From: a virus
DNA length: 36,657 nucleotides
Reading direction: 5' to 3' (one strand)
IMG/VR virus record: IMGVR_UViG_3300010373_000030
Coordinates: 1-36,657 of that record
Shown: piece after piece, positions 6,818 to 10,448 of the stretch
Numbering within the stretch: position 1 is the stretch's first letter
Layout: every line of letters starts with the position of its first letter
Position numbers and translations under genes: made by a program
Notes under the pieces: generated by a model
The model's input: only the letters and a program-made list of their open reading frames with translations
What the model was told of the DNA's origin: nothing
Databases searched by the model: none

Positions 6818-6993
6818 ACACCATCGACCTACGCCAGTGGGACAACTACCAGCATTCCTCACGCATCAACGCAGATGGCTTCATAGAGCTACAGGACGGT
6901 GAGCTTTCTGAGCTTAGGGCAAAGCTATGGCTTGCTGAGAACGTTGGGCAAGCGCCCAGTGTGGAAGGTATCGAGACGCGGAGGGTGAGGTGA
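6814..6993 (+). CDS. Hypothetical small protein, 59 aa
   Basis: An open frame of 60 codons from ATG 6814 (overlapping the previous stop as ATGA) to TGA 6991-6993. The protein (MNTIDLRQWDNYQHSSRINADG, then ELQDGELSELRAKLWLAENVG) is mixed helical and acidic with no recognised domain. The precise stop-start overlaps on both sides argue that it is translated. Function unknown. Confidence 0.6.
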   Translation: MNTIDLRQWDNYQHSSRINADGFIELQDGELSELRAKLWLAENVGQAPSVEGIETRRVR

Positions 6994-7286
6994 TGGAGGT
7001 CATTTCTAAGCCAGGATATGACGCACTTTGGGCTGATTTTGGCTTGTCCTATGCATCGTTCCTAGTGATGCCGCGCGTTCTCATGCATGAAATGCCTGAT
7101 GAGTGGCAAGGAAAAATGGCTGAACTTCTAGCTGAGTGGCATGACGCATGGAATTGGCCTGATGAAATAGGTAGTTCTGTGGTCTGCCACCAGATAGATG
7201 GGAAGTTCGCCCCATGGCCTAGATGGATTCTTAACTATCGTAGGCCAGATGTGGATTACATAAGTACTATGAAGCGCAATCCATGA
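6993..7286 (+). CDS. Hypothetical protein, 97 aa, Trp-rich
   Basis: Starts at ATG 6993, overlapping the previous TGA as TGATG (a GTG one codon upstream is an alternative). The middle segment (VLMHEMPDEWQGKMAELLAEWHDAWNWPDEIGSSVVCHQIDGKFAPWPRWILNYRRP) is rich in Trp and Pro, a pattern I associate with a common uncharacterised phage family found beside recombination nucleases. No catalytic motif is evident. It is coupled to the Ref-type nuclease that follows. Confidence 0.65.
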   Translation: MEVISKPGYDALWADFGLSYASFLVMPRVLMHEMPDEWQGKMAELLAEWHDAWNWPDEIGSSVVCHQIDGKFAPWPRWILNYRRPDVDYISTMKRNP

Positions 7287-7546
7287 GCACGGCCGCCGAA
7301 AAACGCCACATGTCCCGGGTAGCATCCCTTCCATGCGCCTGTTGTGGTGTAACAGGTGTTCAGGTTCACCACATCCGGGAGACGATGGGCATGGGCCAGA
7401 GGGCTTCTAACTGGCTGACGATACCGTTGTGTCCTGATTGCCATACTGGCCCGAATGGAATCCACAGATCGCGCACCATGCTCCGCATCATCAAAGCCGA
7501 CGAACTAACGTTGTTATCTGACACGTTGAGCAAACTTTACTCTTGA
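7283..7546 (+). CDS. Ref-family / HNH-type recombination nuclease
   Basis: 87 residues with the zinc and HNH signature of the Ref (RecA-dependent nuclease) family: CxxC at C18/C21, VHHIRE at 28-33 with paired histidines, GQRASNWLTIPLC, then CPDCHTGPNGIH with C50, C53, H54 and H61. P1 Ref makes breaks at RecA-bound D-loops; related small phage proteins may act on recombination intermediates. This protein is half the length of P1 Ref and is essentially the nuclease core. The ATG overlaps the previous stop. It complements the ERF/NinB module on the other strand. Confidence 0.75.
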   Translation: MSTAAEKRHMSRVASLPCACCGVTGVQVHHIRETMGMGQRASNWLTIPLCPDCHTGPNGIHRSRTMLRIIKADELTLLSDTLSKLYS

Positions 7547-7555
7547 GGAAAGGCT

Positions 7556-8515
7556 ATGTACTTCACTGGCGATACCTTTGACGATCTTCTTGGCCAAGCC
7601 AAACACATGTATGACCTTCAAAAGAAGAAGGCAGACGAAACTATACCGAAGGTCATGAAGTTCGATTCGATTCCATCTTTCGCGGGCTTCTATTCAAGCT
7701 CACTCAAGGTCAAGGGCGGCTACTATTCAAGTGATAGAGATCCTGTGACGGTCGCAGAATTCGATAGCTGCTTGGAAAAGTATCTAACATCGTTAGATGA
7801 GAAGGAAAAGGAAGTAACGGCCAAGCATGAGGCTAACAAGCCCATGATGGAGAATAACAAGATCATCCGCGAGAAGGTTTCGCTCATCATGCGTGAACTT
7901 GGAATACCCGGGACTTATCAAGAACGCGACTACAAGAGTAAGTCTCGTACTCCAAAGTATGAAACTAGGATCGCTGGCTATGAGGGAGATTTGCAGCGAA
8001 ACGTACGCATTGATGATGGCTATGACTTGGCTATCAAGTCTATCCAGAAATCCCGCTTAGATGCTAAATCTTATGTAGAAGGCAAGCGAAAGGAATTGGC
8101 CTCGAAGGAGGCGGCCGAAGCTAAGATCAAGGAAGAAAAGCGAAAGGAGGTTGTTCTAGTCCATCTTCGTGTCAAGTATGGCGCAGACCCCGAGGATAGC
8201 GCCAAAGATGTACTGTATGACCATGTCTTACCGAAAAACAAATACCTGCGACTGTATCACTATCTACTAGCCAATCGTGGTGATTGGTCGGAGGGTTACG
8301 ATTATGCCGAACAGGGTATCGATGGTTTCTCCATTGAAACCGAAGAAGATCAGCGAATCTATGATGCCATTCGAGATGTTATCGACAATAGTGACGGGTT
8401 CGTAGATGGTCGCGTCTTCCGAGACATGGAGCTTGGCTATGGTCATATCTTTGGCCTTGTCAAAGACGAAACCCTGATGGCTGATTACAACACTCTTACT
8501 TCGTACATAGTCTAA
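7556..8515 (+). CDS. Large hypothetical early protein with central coiled coil (319 aa)
   Basis: No recognised family. Residues about 75-105 and 175-205 are highly charged and helical (EKEKEVTAKHEANK; KRKELASKEAAEAKIKEEKRKEVV), indicating coiled coils. The C-terminal third (RVKYGADPEDSAKDVLYDHVLPKNKYLRLYHYLLANRGDWSEG...EETEDQRIYDAIRDVIDNSDGFVDGRVFRDMELGYG) looks like a compact domain. The ATG at 7556 has GAGGAAAGG upstream. It is the largest unassigned early protein. A DNA-metabolism role is suggested only by its neighbours. Confidence 0.65.
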   Translation: MYFTGDTFDDLLGQAKHMYDLQKKKADETIPKVMKFDSIPSFAGFYSSSLKVKGGYYSSDRDPVTVAEFDSCLEKYLTSLDEKEKEVTAKHEANKPMMENNKIIREKVSLIMRELGIPGTYQERDYKSKSRTPKYETRIAGYEGDLQRNVRIDDGYDLAIKSIQKSRLDAKSYVEGKRKELASKEAAEAKIKEEKRKEVVLVHLRVKYGADPEDSAKDVLYDHVLPKNKYLRLYHYLLANRGDWSEGYDYAEQGIDGFSIETEEDQRIYDAIRDVIDNSDGFVDGRVFRDMELGYGHIFGLVKDETLMADYNTLTSYIV

Positions 8516-8527
8516 GGAGGGAAACTC

Positions 8528-8725
8528 ATGACCACATGGCTAGACATGAAAGACGCGCCTAGGGATGGTACTGAGGTTCTTCTATGCACGGTAGGAGGGC
8601 AGCGCATTGTATGTCGTTATGACGAAGGGCCTTACCCTTGGTCATCGACAGGAGTTGGATGGAGCGAAAGCACGATGATTGGCTTTGTGATTATGCCAGA
8701 TGCCATCACGAAGGAGGATGTATGA
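8528..8725 (+). CDS. DUF551-like small phage protein
   Basis: 65 residues beginning MTTWLDMKDAPRDGTEVLLCTVGGQRIVCRY, which follows the DUF551-type pattern W-x-x-x-x-APxDGT-x-h-L-L. It is preceded by AAGGAGGGAAACTC, a strong ribosome-binding site. Relatives in this window are at 45-365 and 12477-12683. Function unknown. The last codons overlap the next gene's start. Confidence 0.75.
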   Translation: MTTWLDMKDAPRDGTEVLLCTVGGQRIVCRYDEGPYPWSSTGVGWSESTMIGFVIMPDAITKEDV

Positions 8726-8928
8726 GCTATTCCATCGAAGACATCATTAGACGTCATCCAGAAGTCCTAGATCAGGACGGCATGATCCATATCCTTATGG
8801 ATGCTTTTGCCTGTGGTTACTTTCAGGGAGCGATAGACTATTTGCAGTATGAAACCATGGAGAAGGGAGAACCAGAGTCTTCCGCAAGGCATTGGGCCAA
8901 AGACTGGCCGTATGCCGATGAGCTATAG
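8722..8928 (+). CDS. Hypothetical protein, 68 aa
   Basis: Starts at ATG 8722, overlapping the previous stop (ATGA) with GGAGG upstream. The sequence (SIEDIIRRHPEVLDQDGMIHILMDAFACGYFQGAIDYLQYETMEKGE) is mainly helical and acidic, with no recognised family. It is the last gene before a 238-base gap that holds hairpins, a promoter and a structured leader RNA. Confidence 0.65.
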   Translation: MSYSIEDIIRRHPEVLDQDGMIHILMDAFACGYFQGAIDYLQYETMEKGEPESSARHWAKDWPYADEL

Positions 8929-8929
8929 A

Positions 8930-8948
8930 TATAGGAAAAATTCCTATA
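8930..8948. repeat. AT-rich inverted repeat TATAGGAA-AAA-TTCCTATA
   Basis: Perfect 8-base arms around an AAA loop immediately after the stop at 8928. A further AATTCCTA copy follows at about 8954-8961. There is no T-run, so it is not a classical intrinsic terminator; an operator or a weak transcript-end hairpin are both possible. Confidence 0.6.
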
Positions 8949-8988
8949 AGAATAATTCCTAGGTTTGAACGGACTGGTCAAATGGATA

Positions 8989-9017
8989 TTGACGTTTAGG
9001 CAACATCGTAGGAAAAT
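8989..9017 (+). promoter_or_regulatory. Candidate promoter for the structured leader
   Basis: -35 TTGACG (five of six), 17-base spacer, -10 GAAAAT (four of six). Transcription would begin near 9024, just upstream of the structured RNA at 9042-9142. This gives the leader and the FinO/ProQ gene a possible transcript separate from the early operon. Confidence 0.45.
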
Positions 9018-9041
9018 TTAGACGTTAGCGATAGCTAATAC

Positions 9042-9142
9042 CCGGGTTGCATCGGGGCAAAGAACGACGGTTGATTCTCCTAAGCGGTGGGTTGTTCGCC
9101 CTCACAAGGCACACAAGCCACCGTCGTTCGGGATGCAACCGG
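9042..9142 (+). ncRNA. C4-like structured leader / antisense RNA
   Basis: Outer stem: 9042-9053 with 9132-9142 (11 pairs around a one-base bulge, core GGTTGCATC/GATGCAACC). Inner stem: 9062-9071 with 9120-9129 (GAACGACGGT/ACCGTCGTTC, 10 pairs). The 48-base loop inside holds 9076-9098, which pairs without interruption with 9140-9162 immediately downstream (20 Watson-Crick and 3 G-U pairs), the ribosome-binding region of the next gene. A stable two-stem RNA whose loop is antisense to the neighbouring translation start is the design of the C4 antisense RNA of phages P1 and P7 (Rfam C4). Whether this is a member of that family or an independent analogue cannot be decided by eye. Confidence 0.75.
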
Positions 9143-9162
9143 ACAACTCACCGCTTAGGGGA
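9140..9162 (+). promoter_or_regulatory. Antisense target covering the Shine-Dalgarno of the FinO/ProQ gene
   Basis: This segment is fully complementary (three G-U pairs) to loop bases 9076-9098. It ends in AGGGGA (9157-9162), the ribosome-binding site for the ATG at 9167. Pairing would hide the site and silence translation. Its first bases also close the outer leader stem, so stem formation and target pairing compete only at the edge (9140-9142). Confidence 0.7.
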
Positions 9163-9166
9163 TTCC

Positions 9167-9430
9167 ATGAGAGAGCATCACCGTATTACCCATGCCGCGC
9201 TGCAAGAGCGATGGCCTCATCTATTTAGCATCCCGGTGCCTCTCAAGATAGGCATACACAAAGACTATGCTCAACTGGCTGACCCGCCAGTCAGCAAGGT
9301 CATGTTCAGTCGATTTTTGTTCATGTGGGTTCGCCGACCGGCTTATAAAAAAGCGATTGAGAAGTCATCGCATAGGTATGACCTGGATGGCCGTATGTGC
9401 GAAATGGTGACCAAGGATACAAGGTCATGA
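9167..9430 (+). CDS. FinO/ProQ-domain RNA-binding protein
   Basis: 87 residues, essentially one ProQ/FinO domain. Signature elements appear in order: ERWPHLFS (14-21), PLKIGIHKD (25-33), a lysine/arginine-rich helical segment with VRRPAYKKAI (55-64), and RYDLDG (70-75) followed by EMVT. E. coli ProQ has the equivalents RFPHCFS, PLKIGI, and R-x-DLDG. Such proteins bind the 3' stem-tail of structured RNAs and promote or protect sense-antisense pairing (FinO with FinP). Here the gene follows an RNA that is antisense to its own ribosome-binding site, suggesting autoregulation. The ATG at 9167 has AGGGGA 4 bases upstream; earlier starts would run through the leader. Confidence 0.8.
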   Translation: MREHHRITHAALQERWPHLFSIPVPLKIGIHKDYAQLADPPVSKVMFSRFLFMWVRRPAYKKAIEKSSHRYDLDGRMCEMVTKDTRS

Positions 9431-10140
9431 AGCATGTAGGCCGTATAAAAAACTGGTCAAAGTTTCAGCACTACAAGAATCGCTGCCCACCTTGGATAAA
9501 GCTTGAAAGAAAGCTTCTCGATGACTTCGAGTTTTCACGCTTGCCTATTGCTAGCAAGGCGCTACTTCCCCTCTTGTGGTTGCTAGCAAGCGAGTCAAAC
9601 GAAGGCTCTTTTGATGCGGACATATCTTTCCTAGCTTTTCGTCTTCGGTGGACAGAGGATGATGTTAGGTCAGGTCTTATACCTTTGATAGATAAAGAAT
9701 TTATCTCATGTGCTAGCGAATTGATAGCAACTTGTCAGCATGATGCTATACCAGAGACAGAGGGAGAGGGAGAGACAGAGGGAGATTTATCTAACCCTAA
9801 AGGGTTAGAAGTCGGAAAAGATTCCGACGCGCCTAAGCGTAAGATTCAGAACTGCCCAGTTCAGAAAATCATCGATTTGTACCACGAGATTCTTCTGCCT
9901 GAGCTTCCTGCGGTTGAGAAAGTGACTAAGACCCGAGAGGGATATATCCGGCAACGTTGGCTGCAAGACCTCCAAGAACTTGACCATTGGCGGAACTACT
10001 TCCAAGACGTGAAGCGGTCCAATTTCCTAATGGGTCGAGTCGATGGGAGAGATGGGAAGCCACCATTCCGCGCTGATCTGGAATGGCTCACAAGGCCCGG
10101 GAATTTCACCAAGGTAGCCGAGGGTAAGTACCACCGATGA
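9427..10140 (+). CDS. Phage replication initiation protein (O-like)
   Basis: 237 residues starting at ATG 9427 (ATGA overlap). The N-terminal part (about 1-100: KNWSKFQHYKNRCPPWIKLERKLLDDFEFSRLP...LLPLLWLLASES...) looks like the winged-helix DNA-binding domain of phage replication proteins. Residues about 110-130 are an acidic Glu/Gly/Thr linker encoded by DNA repeats. The C-terminal half (IIDLYHEILLPELPAVEKVTKTREGYIRQRW, then GRDGKPPFRADLEWLTRPGNFTKVAEGKY) matches the helicase- or loader-recruiting end of many phage replication proteins. No phage helicase or polymerase is present, so it presumably recruits the host replisome. Confidence 0.75.
   Translation: MKHVGRIKNWSKFQHYKNRCPPWIKLERKLLDDFEFSRLPIASKALLPLLWLLASESNEGSFDADISFLAFRLRWTEDDVRSGLIPLIDKEFISCASELIATCQHDAIPETEGEGETEGDLSNPKGLEVGKDSDAPKRKIQNCPVQKIIDLYHEILLPELPAVEKVTKTREGYIRQRWLQDLQELDHWRNYFQDVKRSNFLMGRVDGRDGKPPFRADLEWLTRPGNFTKVAEGKYHR
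9753..9828. other. Candidate replication origin: repeats inside the replication gene
   Basis: Two copies of AGAGACAGAGGGAGA (9753-9767 and 9771-9785) are followed directly by two inverted repeats: TCTAACCCT-AA-AGGGTTAGA (9790-9809) and GTCGGAA-AAGA-TTCCGAC (9811-9828). Purine strand bias, direct repeats and dyads inside the linker-coding part of an initiator gene resemble the lambda origin, which lies within gene O. Confidence 0.55.
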
Positions 10141-10448
10141 ACGACGATTATTTCCCGCAAGATCGTGGCTATATGCCAAAGAAGAAATATTCCTCTCGTG
10201 TAGAACGTCAGGAAATGGCAACCGAATCCCCTAAGTGGTGTGGCGATCCTGATTGTCGTTCTATCTACCATCCAGCGCGCGGTCGCGAAGGTCCGACTTT
10301 CAGCCGAGGCTATGCCGACATCGCGATATACCTTGACGAAAAGACGATTTATCGTTGTCAGTCGTGCTATCTAGAAACGATTTATCGCGCGGGTAAATCA
10401 CAAATCCAATGCGCTGAGCGATCAGAAAATAGGAAGGTGAAGGCATGA
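10137..10448 (+). CDS. Hypothetical protein with putative zinc-binding cysteines (103 aa)
   Basis: The ATG overlaps the previous stop (ATGA). Residues 35-40 contain C-G-D-P-D-C and residues about 73-77 contain CQSC, giving a possible four-cysteine zinc site; the intervening part (SRGYADIAIYLDEKTIYR) is beta-like. The N-terminus is basic (MPKKKYSSRVERQ). It follows the replication gene, so it may take part in replication or transcription, but no family is recognised. Confidence 0.65.
   Translation: MNDDYFPQDRGYMPKKKYSSRVERQEMATESPKWCGDPDCRSIYHPARGREGPTFSRGYADIAIYLDEKTIYRCQSCYLETIYRAGKSQIQCAERSENRKVKA

Follow-up and report, generated by a model that had tools for sequence, protein, structure and literature searches.

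Among the closest described systems is the C4 RNA of phages P1 and P7, a structured leader that is antisense to a translation start located just downstream on the same transcript. In the annotation of P1, C4 (48343-48419) is preceded by an operator and promoters and followed by its targets a2 (48423-48429) and b2 (48452-48459), the small ORF icd (48470-48691) and the antirepressor gene ant1 (from 48688), whose start overlaps the icd stop by 4 nt (ATGA). C4 cleavage occurs at a GGU-type motif (PMC5320573).

A second group of related systems is found in plasmids, where FinO-domain proteins act on antisense or leader RNAs of rep genes, as described for FopA with Inc/repZ, PcnR with repR/repA, and FinO with RepX (PMC9977716, PMC8136791). 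In these systems, either transcription of the opposite strand supplies the antisense, or a stem in the leader is bound directly by the protein. FinO-domain proteins recognise hairpins that end in a single-stranded 3' pyrimidine tail bearing a 3' hydroxyl; for pairing or strand exchange, FinO, RocC and ProQ require regions beyond the domain (PMC9674577).

The locus analyzed here is carried by a metagenomic P22-like phage, IMG/VR record IMGVR_UViG_3300010373_000030, positions 1-36,657 of which constitute the whole stretch of DNA studied (the window; 36,657 nt). The window encodes P22-like portal and coat proteins, the recombination genes NinB and Erf, and two tRNAs. Its parts follow the order Oc4-Pc4-C4-a2/b2-icd-(ATGA)-ant1 of P1, with an operator-like and a promoter-like site in the first two positions; however, the small ORF encodes a FinO/ProQ domain, and a replication initiator takes the place of the antirepressor as effector. 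Like the plasmid systems, it combines a FinO-domain protein with pairing of the antisense type over a translation start and has a replication gene as its output, but antisense and target are located on one strand and the FinO-domain gene would itself be the first target.

Pairings and predicted folding of the leader

The leader precedes a proQ/finO-domain gene starting with an ATG at 9167-9169, and all of its segments are located on the plus strand. The 5' strand of an outer stem (O, 9042-9053) pairs with 9132-9142 (O'), giving CC(G)GGUUGCAUC/GGAUGCAACCGG with 11 pairs and a bulged G9044. Nested within it, the 5' strand of an inner stem (I, 9062-9071) pairs with 9120-9129 (I'), all ten pairs being of the Watson-Crick type. 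The enclosed loop contains a 23-nt antisense segment (A, 9076-9098), complementary to a target segment (A', 9140-9162) that includes the Shine-Dalgarno sequence AGGGGA (9157-9162). Both the nested stems and the gapless 23-pair antisense over the Shine-Dalgarno had been proposed in a sequence-only reading of the window, and recomputation reproduced them, the antisense run consisting of 20 Watson-Crick and three G-U pairs. Since these three G-U pairs would be C-A on the other strand, the A/A' duplex is continuous only as a plus-strand RNA.

A run of 23 pairs did not occur in any of 120 dinucleotide shuffles of the window, in which the maxima were mostly 13-17, typically 14-15, and the largest was 21. 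Folding of the leader gave a z of -4.0, with equal stability in one of 200 shuffles. When the three-helix layout was searched for (outer stem of at least 7, inner stem of at least 8, antisense of at least 15), this leader was the single occurrence in the window, with none on its minus strand and none on the plus strand of 1.07 Mb of other loci. It is unlikely that the A/A' pairing and the layout arose by chance: the design of the leader is real and rare, while its function is putative.

In the full leader, with the target transcribed, the 23-bp duplex makes up 0.99 of the predicted ensemble and both nested stems are lost, this dominance beginning once position 9160 is transcribed. The duplex fold has an energy of -57 kcal/mol compared to -46 kcal/mol for the nested fold; without the Shine-Dalgarno region, the nested stems reach -40.5 and the minimum-energy fold -44.5. 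In the duplex, the predicted accessibility of the Shine-Dalgarno is approximately 0; holding the antisense single-stranded raises it to 0.13-0.62. As long as the target has not been transcribed, the outer stem is predicted to form at 0.82-0.99 only if the 5' end of the RNA is located at 9042-9045, and the inner stem at 0.04-0.69, with a competitor hairpin (9084-9090/9118-9124) occupying the antisense. A small 5' hairpin (9041-9056), whose loop includes part of the outer-stem 5' strand, also appears in the predicted fold. Given this stability of the duplex in the full leader, the nested stems would need kinetic trapping or a protein in order to matter. The O and I strands precede A' in the order of transcription, and these models make it plausible that the nested fold forms early and the more stable duplex later.

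The leader had been described in the sequence-only reading as C4-like. With regard to layout this description held when matched against the annotated P1 operon, and, as in RF01695, the antisense can pair with the ribosome-binding region of the gene that follows on the same transcript. Membership of the Rfam family did not follow: the C4 covariance model (gathering threshold 45 bits) found nothing in the window at E<=10, compared to 68.8 bits and E 9.9e-15 for the P1 control, and there is no other sequence similarity between the two leaders. The leader does not have the three-stem structure of C4, in which a2 and b2 are each recognised by an antisense loop of their own (a' and b'); P1 C4 addresses two targets of 7 and 8 nt, whereas the window has one target and one contiguous antisense of 23 nt. 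The outer stem has a GGU close to its 5' end, at 9045. No second upstream target like a1/b1 of P1 was found, the best candidate within 8900-9080 being no better than -17 kcal/mol. By analogy, the leader would work like C4 on paper, yet it is no C4 RNA.

No homologous leader was detected in the collections searched, i.e., annotated phages by DNA similarity and IMG/VR by patterns. The exact target pattern had no match in IMG/VR, and the exact outer-stem pattern a single one, located inside an unrelated gene and lacking further similarity. The pairings of the window leader thus rest on one sequence, and this single copy is the main limit of their interpretation. Within the window itself, 17 nt on the minus strand (10224-10240) resemble the target segment (CCxCTTAGGGGATTC). 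They lie in a coding sequence that is also present in the sister phage L002, which does not have the leader; the resemblance was set aside and is probably due to chance.

The proQ and rep genes and their exchanged cassette

The gene downstream of the leader (proQ, 9167-9430, plus strand) encodes a protein of 87 aa, and its identification as FinO/ProQ in the sequence-only reading is confirmed by both profile and structure. Residues 9-85 match Pfam PF04352 (3.9e-17; 62.6 bits against a cut-off of 27), and the model of the domain (pLDDT 86) has a fold matching NMB1681, RocC and FinO, with Foldseek TMq values of 0.81 to NMB1681 and 0.83 to RocC. G29, Y60 and R70 are invariant in the protein alignment A5. 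The protein is a bare FinO/ProQ domain without N- or C-terminal extension; such extensions are needed for duplexing or strand exchange, not for membership of PF04352. The closest bacterial homologue (locus L091) shows 43% identity. No comparable leader precedes its gene or any of the further proQ genes inspected in phages and plasmids. Peptide patterns retrieved no homologues of the protein from IMG/VR, and an alignment of nine proQ family members was too divergent to find any. An upstream coding extension of proQ from TTG 9047 was considered and rejected: its 40 extra codons score as non-coding (-0.315; the 5th percentile of coding windows is 0.078, and proQ itself scores only -0.069), and no Shine-Dalgarno sequence precedes this TTG.

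The proQ stop codon overlaps the ATG of rep (9427-10140, plus strand), a replication-initiation gene encoding an O-like or DnaD-like loader, assigned through PHROGs replication families and tblastn relatives. The overlap (ATGA, 9427-9430) is the same as that of icd and ant1 in P1, and the rep start at 9427 is close to the starts of its relatives. Given this overlap, whatever controls the translation of proQ probably controls rep as well.

According to the replication gene, the nearest relatives of the window are the IMG/VR records L002 and L003. Over 6962-8970 the window and L002 share 96% identity, and from 9751 on 89%; instead of the intervening segment on the plus strand (8971-9750), L002 has 711 unrelated bp. 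In L003 both flanks match and the region between them does not. Besides the leader and the whole of proQ, the exchanged cassette comprises the promoter-like site and the N-terminal half of rep. Its boundaries with respect to L002 are sharp, the right one being located inside rep, so that the N-terminal half is swapped and the C-terminal half is common. The codon use of proQ is atypical. Neither the cassette exchange nor the proQ/rep overlap was part of the sequence-only account.

At the left edge of the cassette, two operator-like palindromes, TAGGAAAAATTCCTA and TAAGAATAATTCCTA, are arranged head-to-tail (8932-8961). The first is exact and identically placed in the window, L002 and L003, and the pair likely represents putative operators of some repressor. 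The promoter-like site (TTGACG-17-GAAAAT, 8989-9017, plus strand), with a predicted RNA start near 9024, is a weak match to the consensus, and the number of such sites found does not exceed that in shuffles. In L002 (2500-2530) and L003 (2495-2525), a common GTGCAATTCTTGCAC hairpin is situated ∼50 nt upstream of their different rep start; this may perhaps be another leader control.

A terminator-type leader before related rep genes

Many relatives of rep carry an element of ∼100 nt directly before the rep ATG, ending in 5-9 T (for example L004:2881-2978 and L062:2887-2986). It was found in at least 120 IMG/VR stretches, at least one of which (L254) is a chance match, and in only two annotated phage records. 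It is placed before replication genes and also before other genes, in aquatic phages. Its segments are ordered O (TTGGCGG), I, A, I', O' (CCGCCAA), a small hairpin, A' and the T run. This is the O-I-A-I'-O'-A' topology of the window leader, likewise directly before the rep operon, with the difference that A' corresponds to a terminator with 5-9 T, whereas in the window it contains the Shine-Dalgarno. The TTGGCGG strand also sits in the loop of a small hairpin, as does the outer-stem 5' strand of the window (9041-9056).

These leaders were aligned (A3; 53 sequences, loci L162-L274) and modelled (covariance model R1). All 15 of the 15 A/A' pairs show double changes, and 99.2% of the cells are paired across the 53 sequences. 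For I/I', after realignment of the strands by hand, 297 of 318 cells are paired with 21 pair types, compared to a best value of 235 in 2000 shuffles of whole strands. The O/O' strands are invariant (TTGGCGG/CCGCCAA), and covariation therefore neither supports nor contradicts this stem. Since I abuts A and I' follows A, complete A/A' and I/I' helices can hardly coexist in one molecule. We infer that the terminator-type leader is a two-state RNA, both alternative folds of which covary.

Rfam contained no credible match for this element, and no earlier description of it was found in the open-access literature, which is weak evidence of novelty. Common ancestry with the window leader was considered and rejected, as model R1 had no match in the window at E<=10. 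Judging from the sequence comparison, this rep family has an established pattern of upstream leaders with two putative alternative folds. By analogy, this lends credibility to a two-state reading of the leader in the window and is not proof of kinship.

Candidate modes of action and their significance

We consider it somewhat probable, from the sequence, that the leader is a two-state antisense-type control RNA of the phage replication cassette, and control of the Shine-Dalgarno by the leader, in whatever form, is probable. In one state, the 23-nt antisense would be confined to the loop closed by nested stems O and I, and ribosomes could reach their binding site on proQ. In the second state, pairing of the antisense with 9140-9162 would bury the Shine-Dalgarno, so that neither proQ nor, through the ATGA overlap, rep would be translated. 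Pairing in cis would suffice for repression; if the leader were processed or released as a short RNA, it might also act in trans on further transcripts, as is the case for C4 in P1. The two-state reading is favoured because the 23-pair duplex exceeds chance, the layout is rare, the predicted accessibility differs between the states, the strands are transcribed in a suitable order, the anatomy parallels that of P1, the leaders of rep relatives covary, and the unit is swapped as a whole in a sister phage. Action in trans and action of ProQ would add to Shine-Dalgarno control rather than exclude it, and the confidences given to the alternatives below partly overlap.

It is possible, though we think it unlikely, that a plain cis hairpin sequesters the Shine-Dalgarno, keeping proQ-rep translation low or dependent on upstream events such as ribosomes, an RNase or temperature, the nested stems being incidental and no trans antisense RNA being made. 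Such a hairpin would agree with the takeover of the predicted ensemble by the duplex once 9160 is transcribed, with the poorly populated inner stem, and with a sequence bearing no sign of processing; however, an inner stem of ten perfect pairs within an outer one of eleven, both precisely in register with the antisense they enclose, exceeds chance, and the crossing stems are conserved in rep relatives. A strict C4-type immunity RNA, excised by RNase P and repressing the proQ-rep genes of superinfecting relatives in trans, is more doubtful still. The layout is that of P1 immI, and from a 5' end at the GGU at 9045 the outer stem is predicted at 0.97-0.99, but Rfam C4 gives no match, 8900-9080 contains no a1/b1-like second target, and a C1-like repressor was not identified.

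The sequence-only reading had further suggested that ProQ acts on its own leader. Binding of ProQ to this RNA, driving a change of fold and thereby autoregulation, as PcnR does on the IncI2 rep leader, seems improbable to us. A circuit that includes the protein is conceivable because plasmid FinO-domain proteins act on rep antisense and leader RNAs, and proQ is located between the leader and rep. Against it, the 87-aa bare domain is devoid of the extensions used by FinO, RocC and ProQ (PMC9674577), no terminator-like 3' tail, the type of end that FinO domains usually bind, is present in 8500-9500, leader included, and none of the further proQ genes inspected in phages and plasmids has such a leader. 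Action of ProQ on its own leader is speculation and weakly supported. Origins of lambdoid phages lie in or near the initiator gene. A DNA element, such as a replication origin or protein-binding repeats near rep, would fit that position, and an N-terminal extension of proQ would fit the open frame from TTG 9047, whose product would be basic. Both are very improbable, as the G-U pairs make the duplex a feature of plus-strand RNA, and the 40 codons are non-coding-like behind a TTG without a Shine-Dalgarno.

On a broader and rather unlikely view, the locus would be a self-contained replication-control cassette, in which a C4-like switch represses a chaperone gene and the coupled initiator, the chaperone acts back on the switch, and the leader is one member, working at the level of translation, of a larger and undescribed group of crossing-stem leaders situated before phage replication genes. 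If the two-state reading of the leader is true, phages apply C4-type antisense control to a replication initiator and not to an antirepressor, and the circuit includes an RNA-chaperone gene. Phage immunity RNAs would then be connected to the FinO-domain control of copy number in plasmids, in a compact system testable by fusions. A further outcome of the comparison is a phage leader RNA that is widespread and apparently undescribed, and whose two alternative folds both covary.
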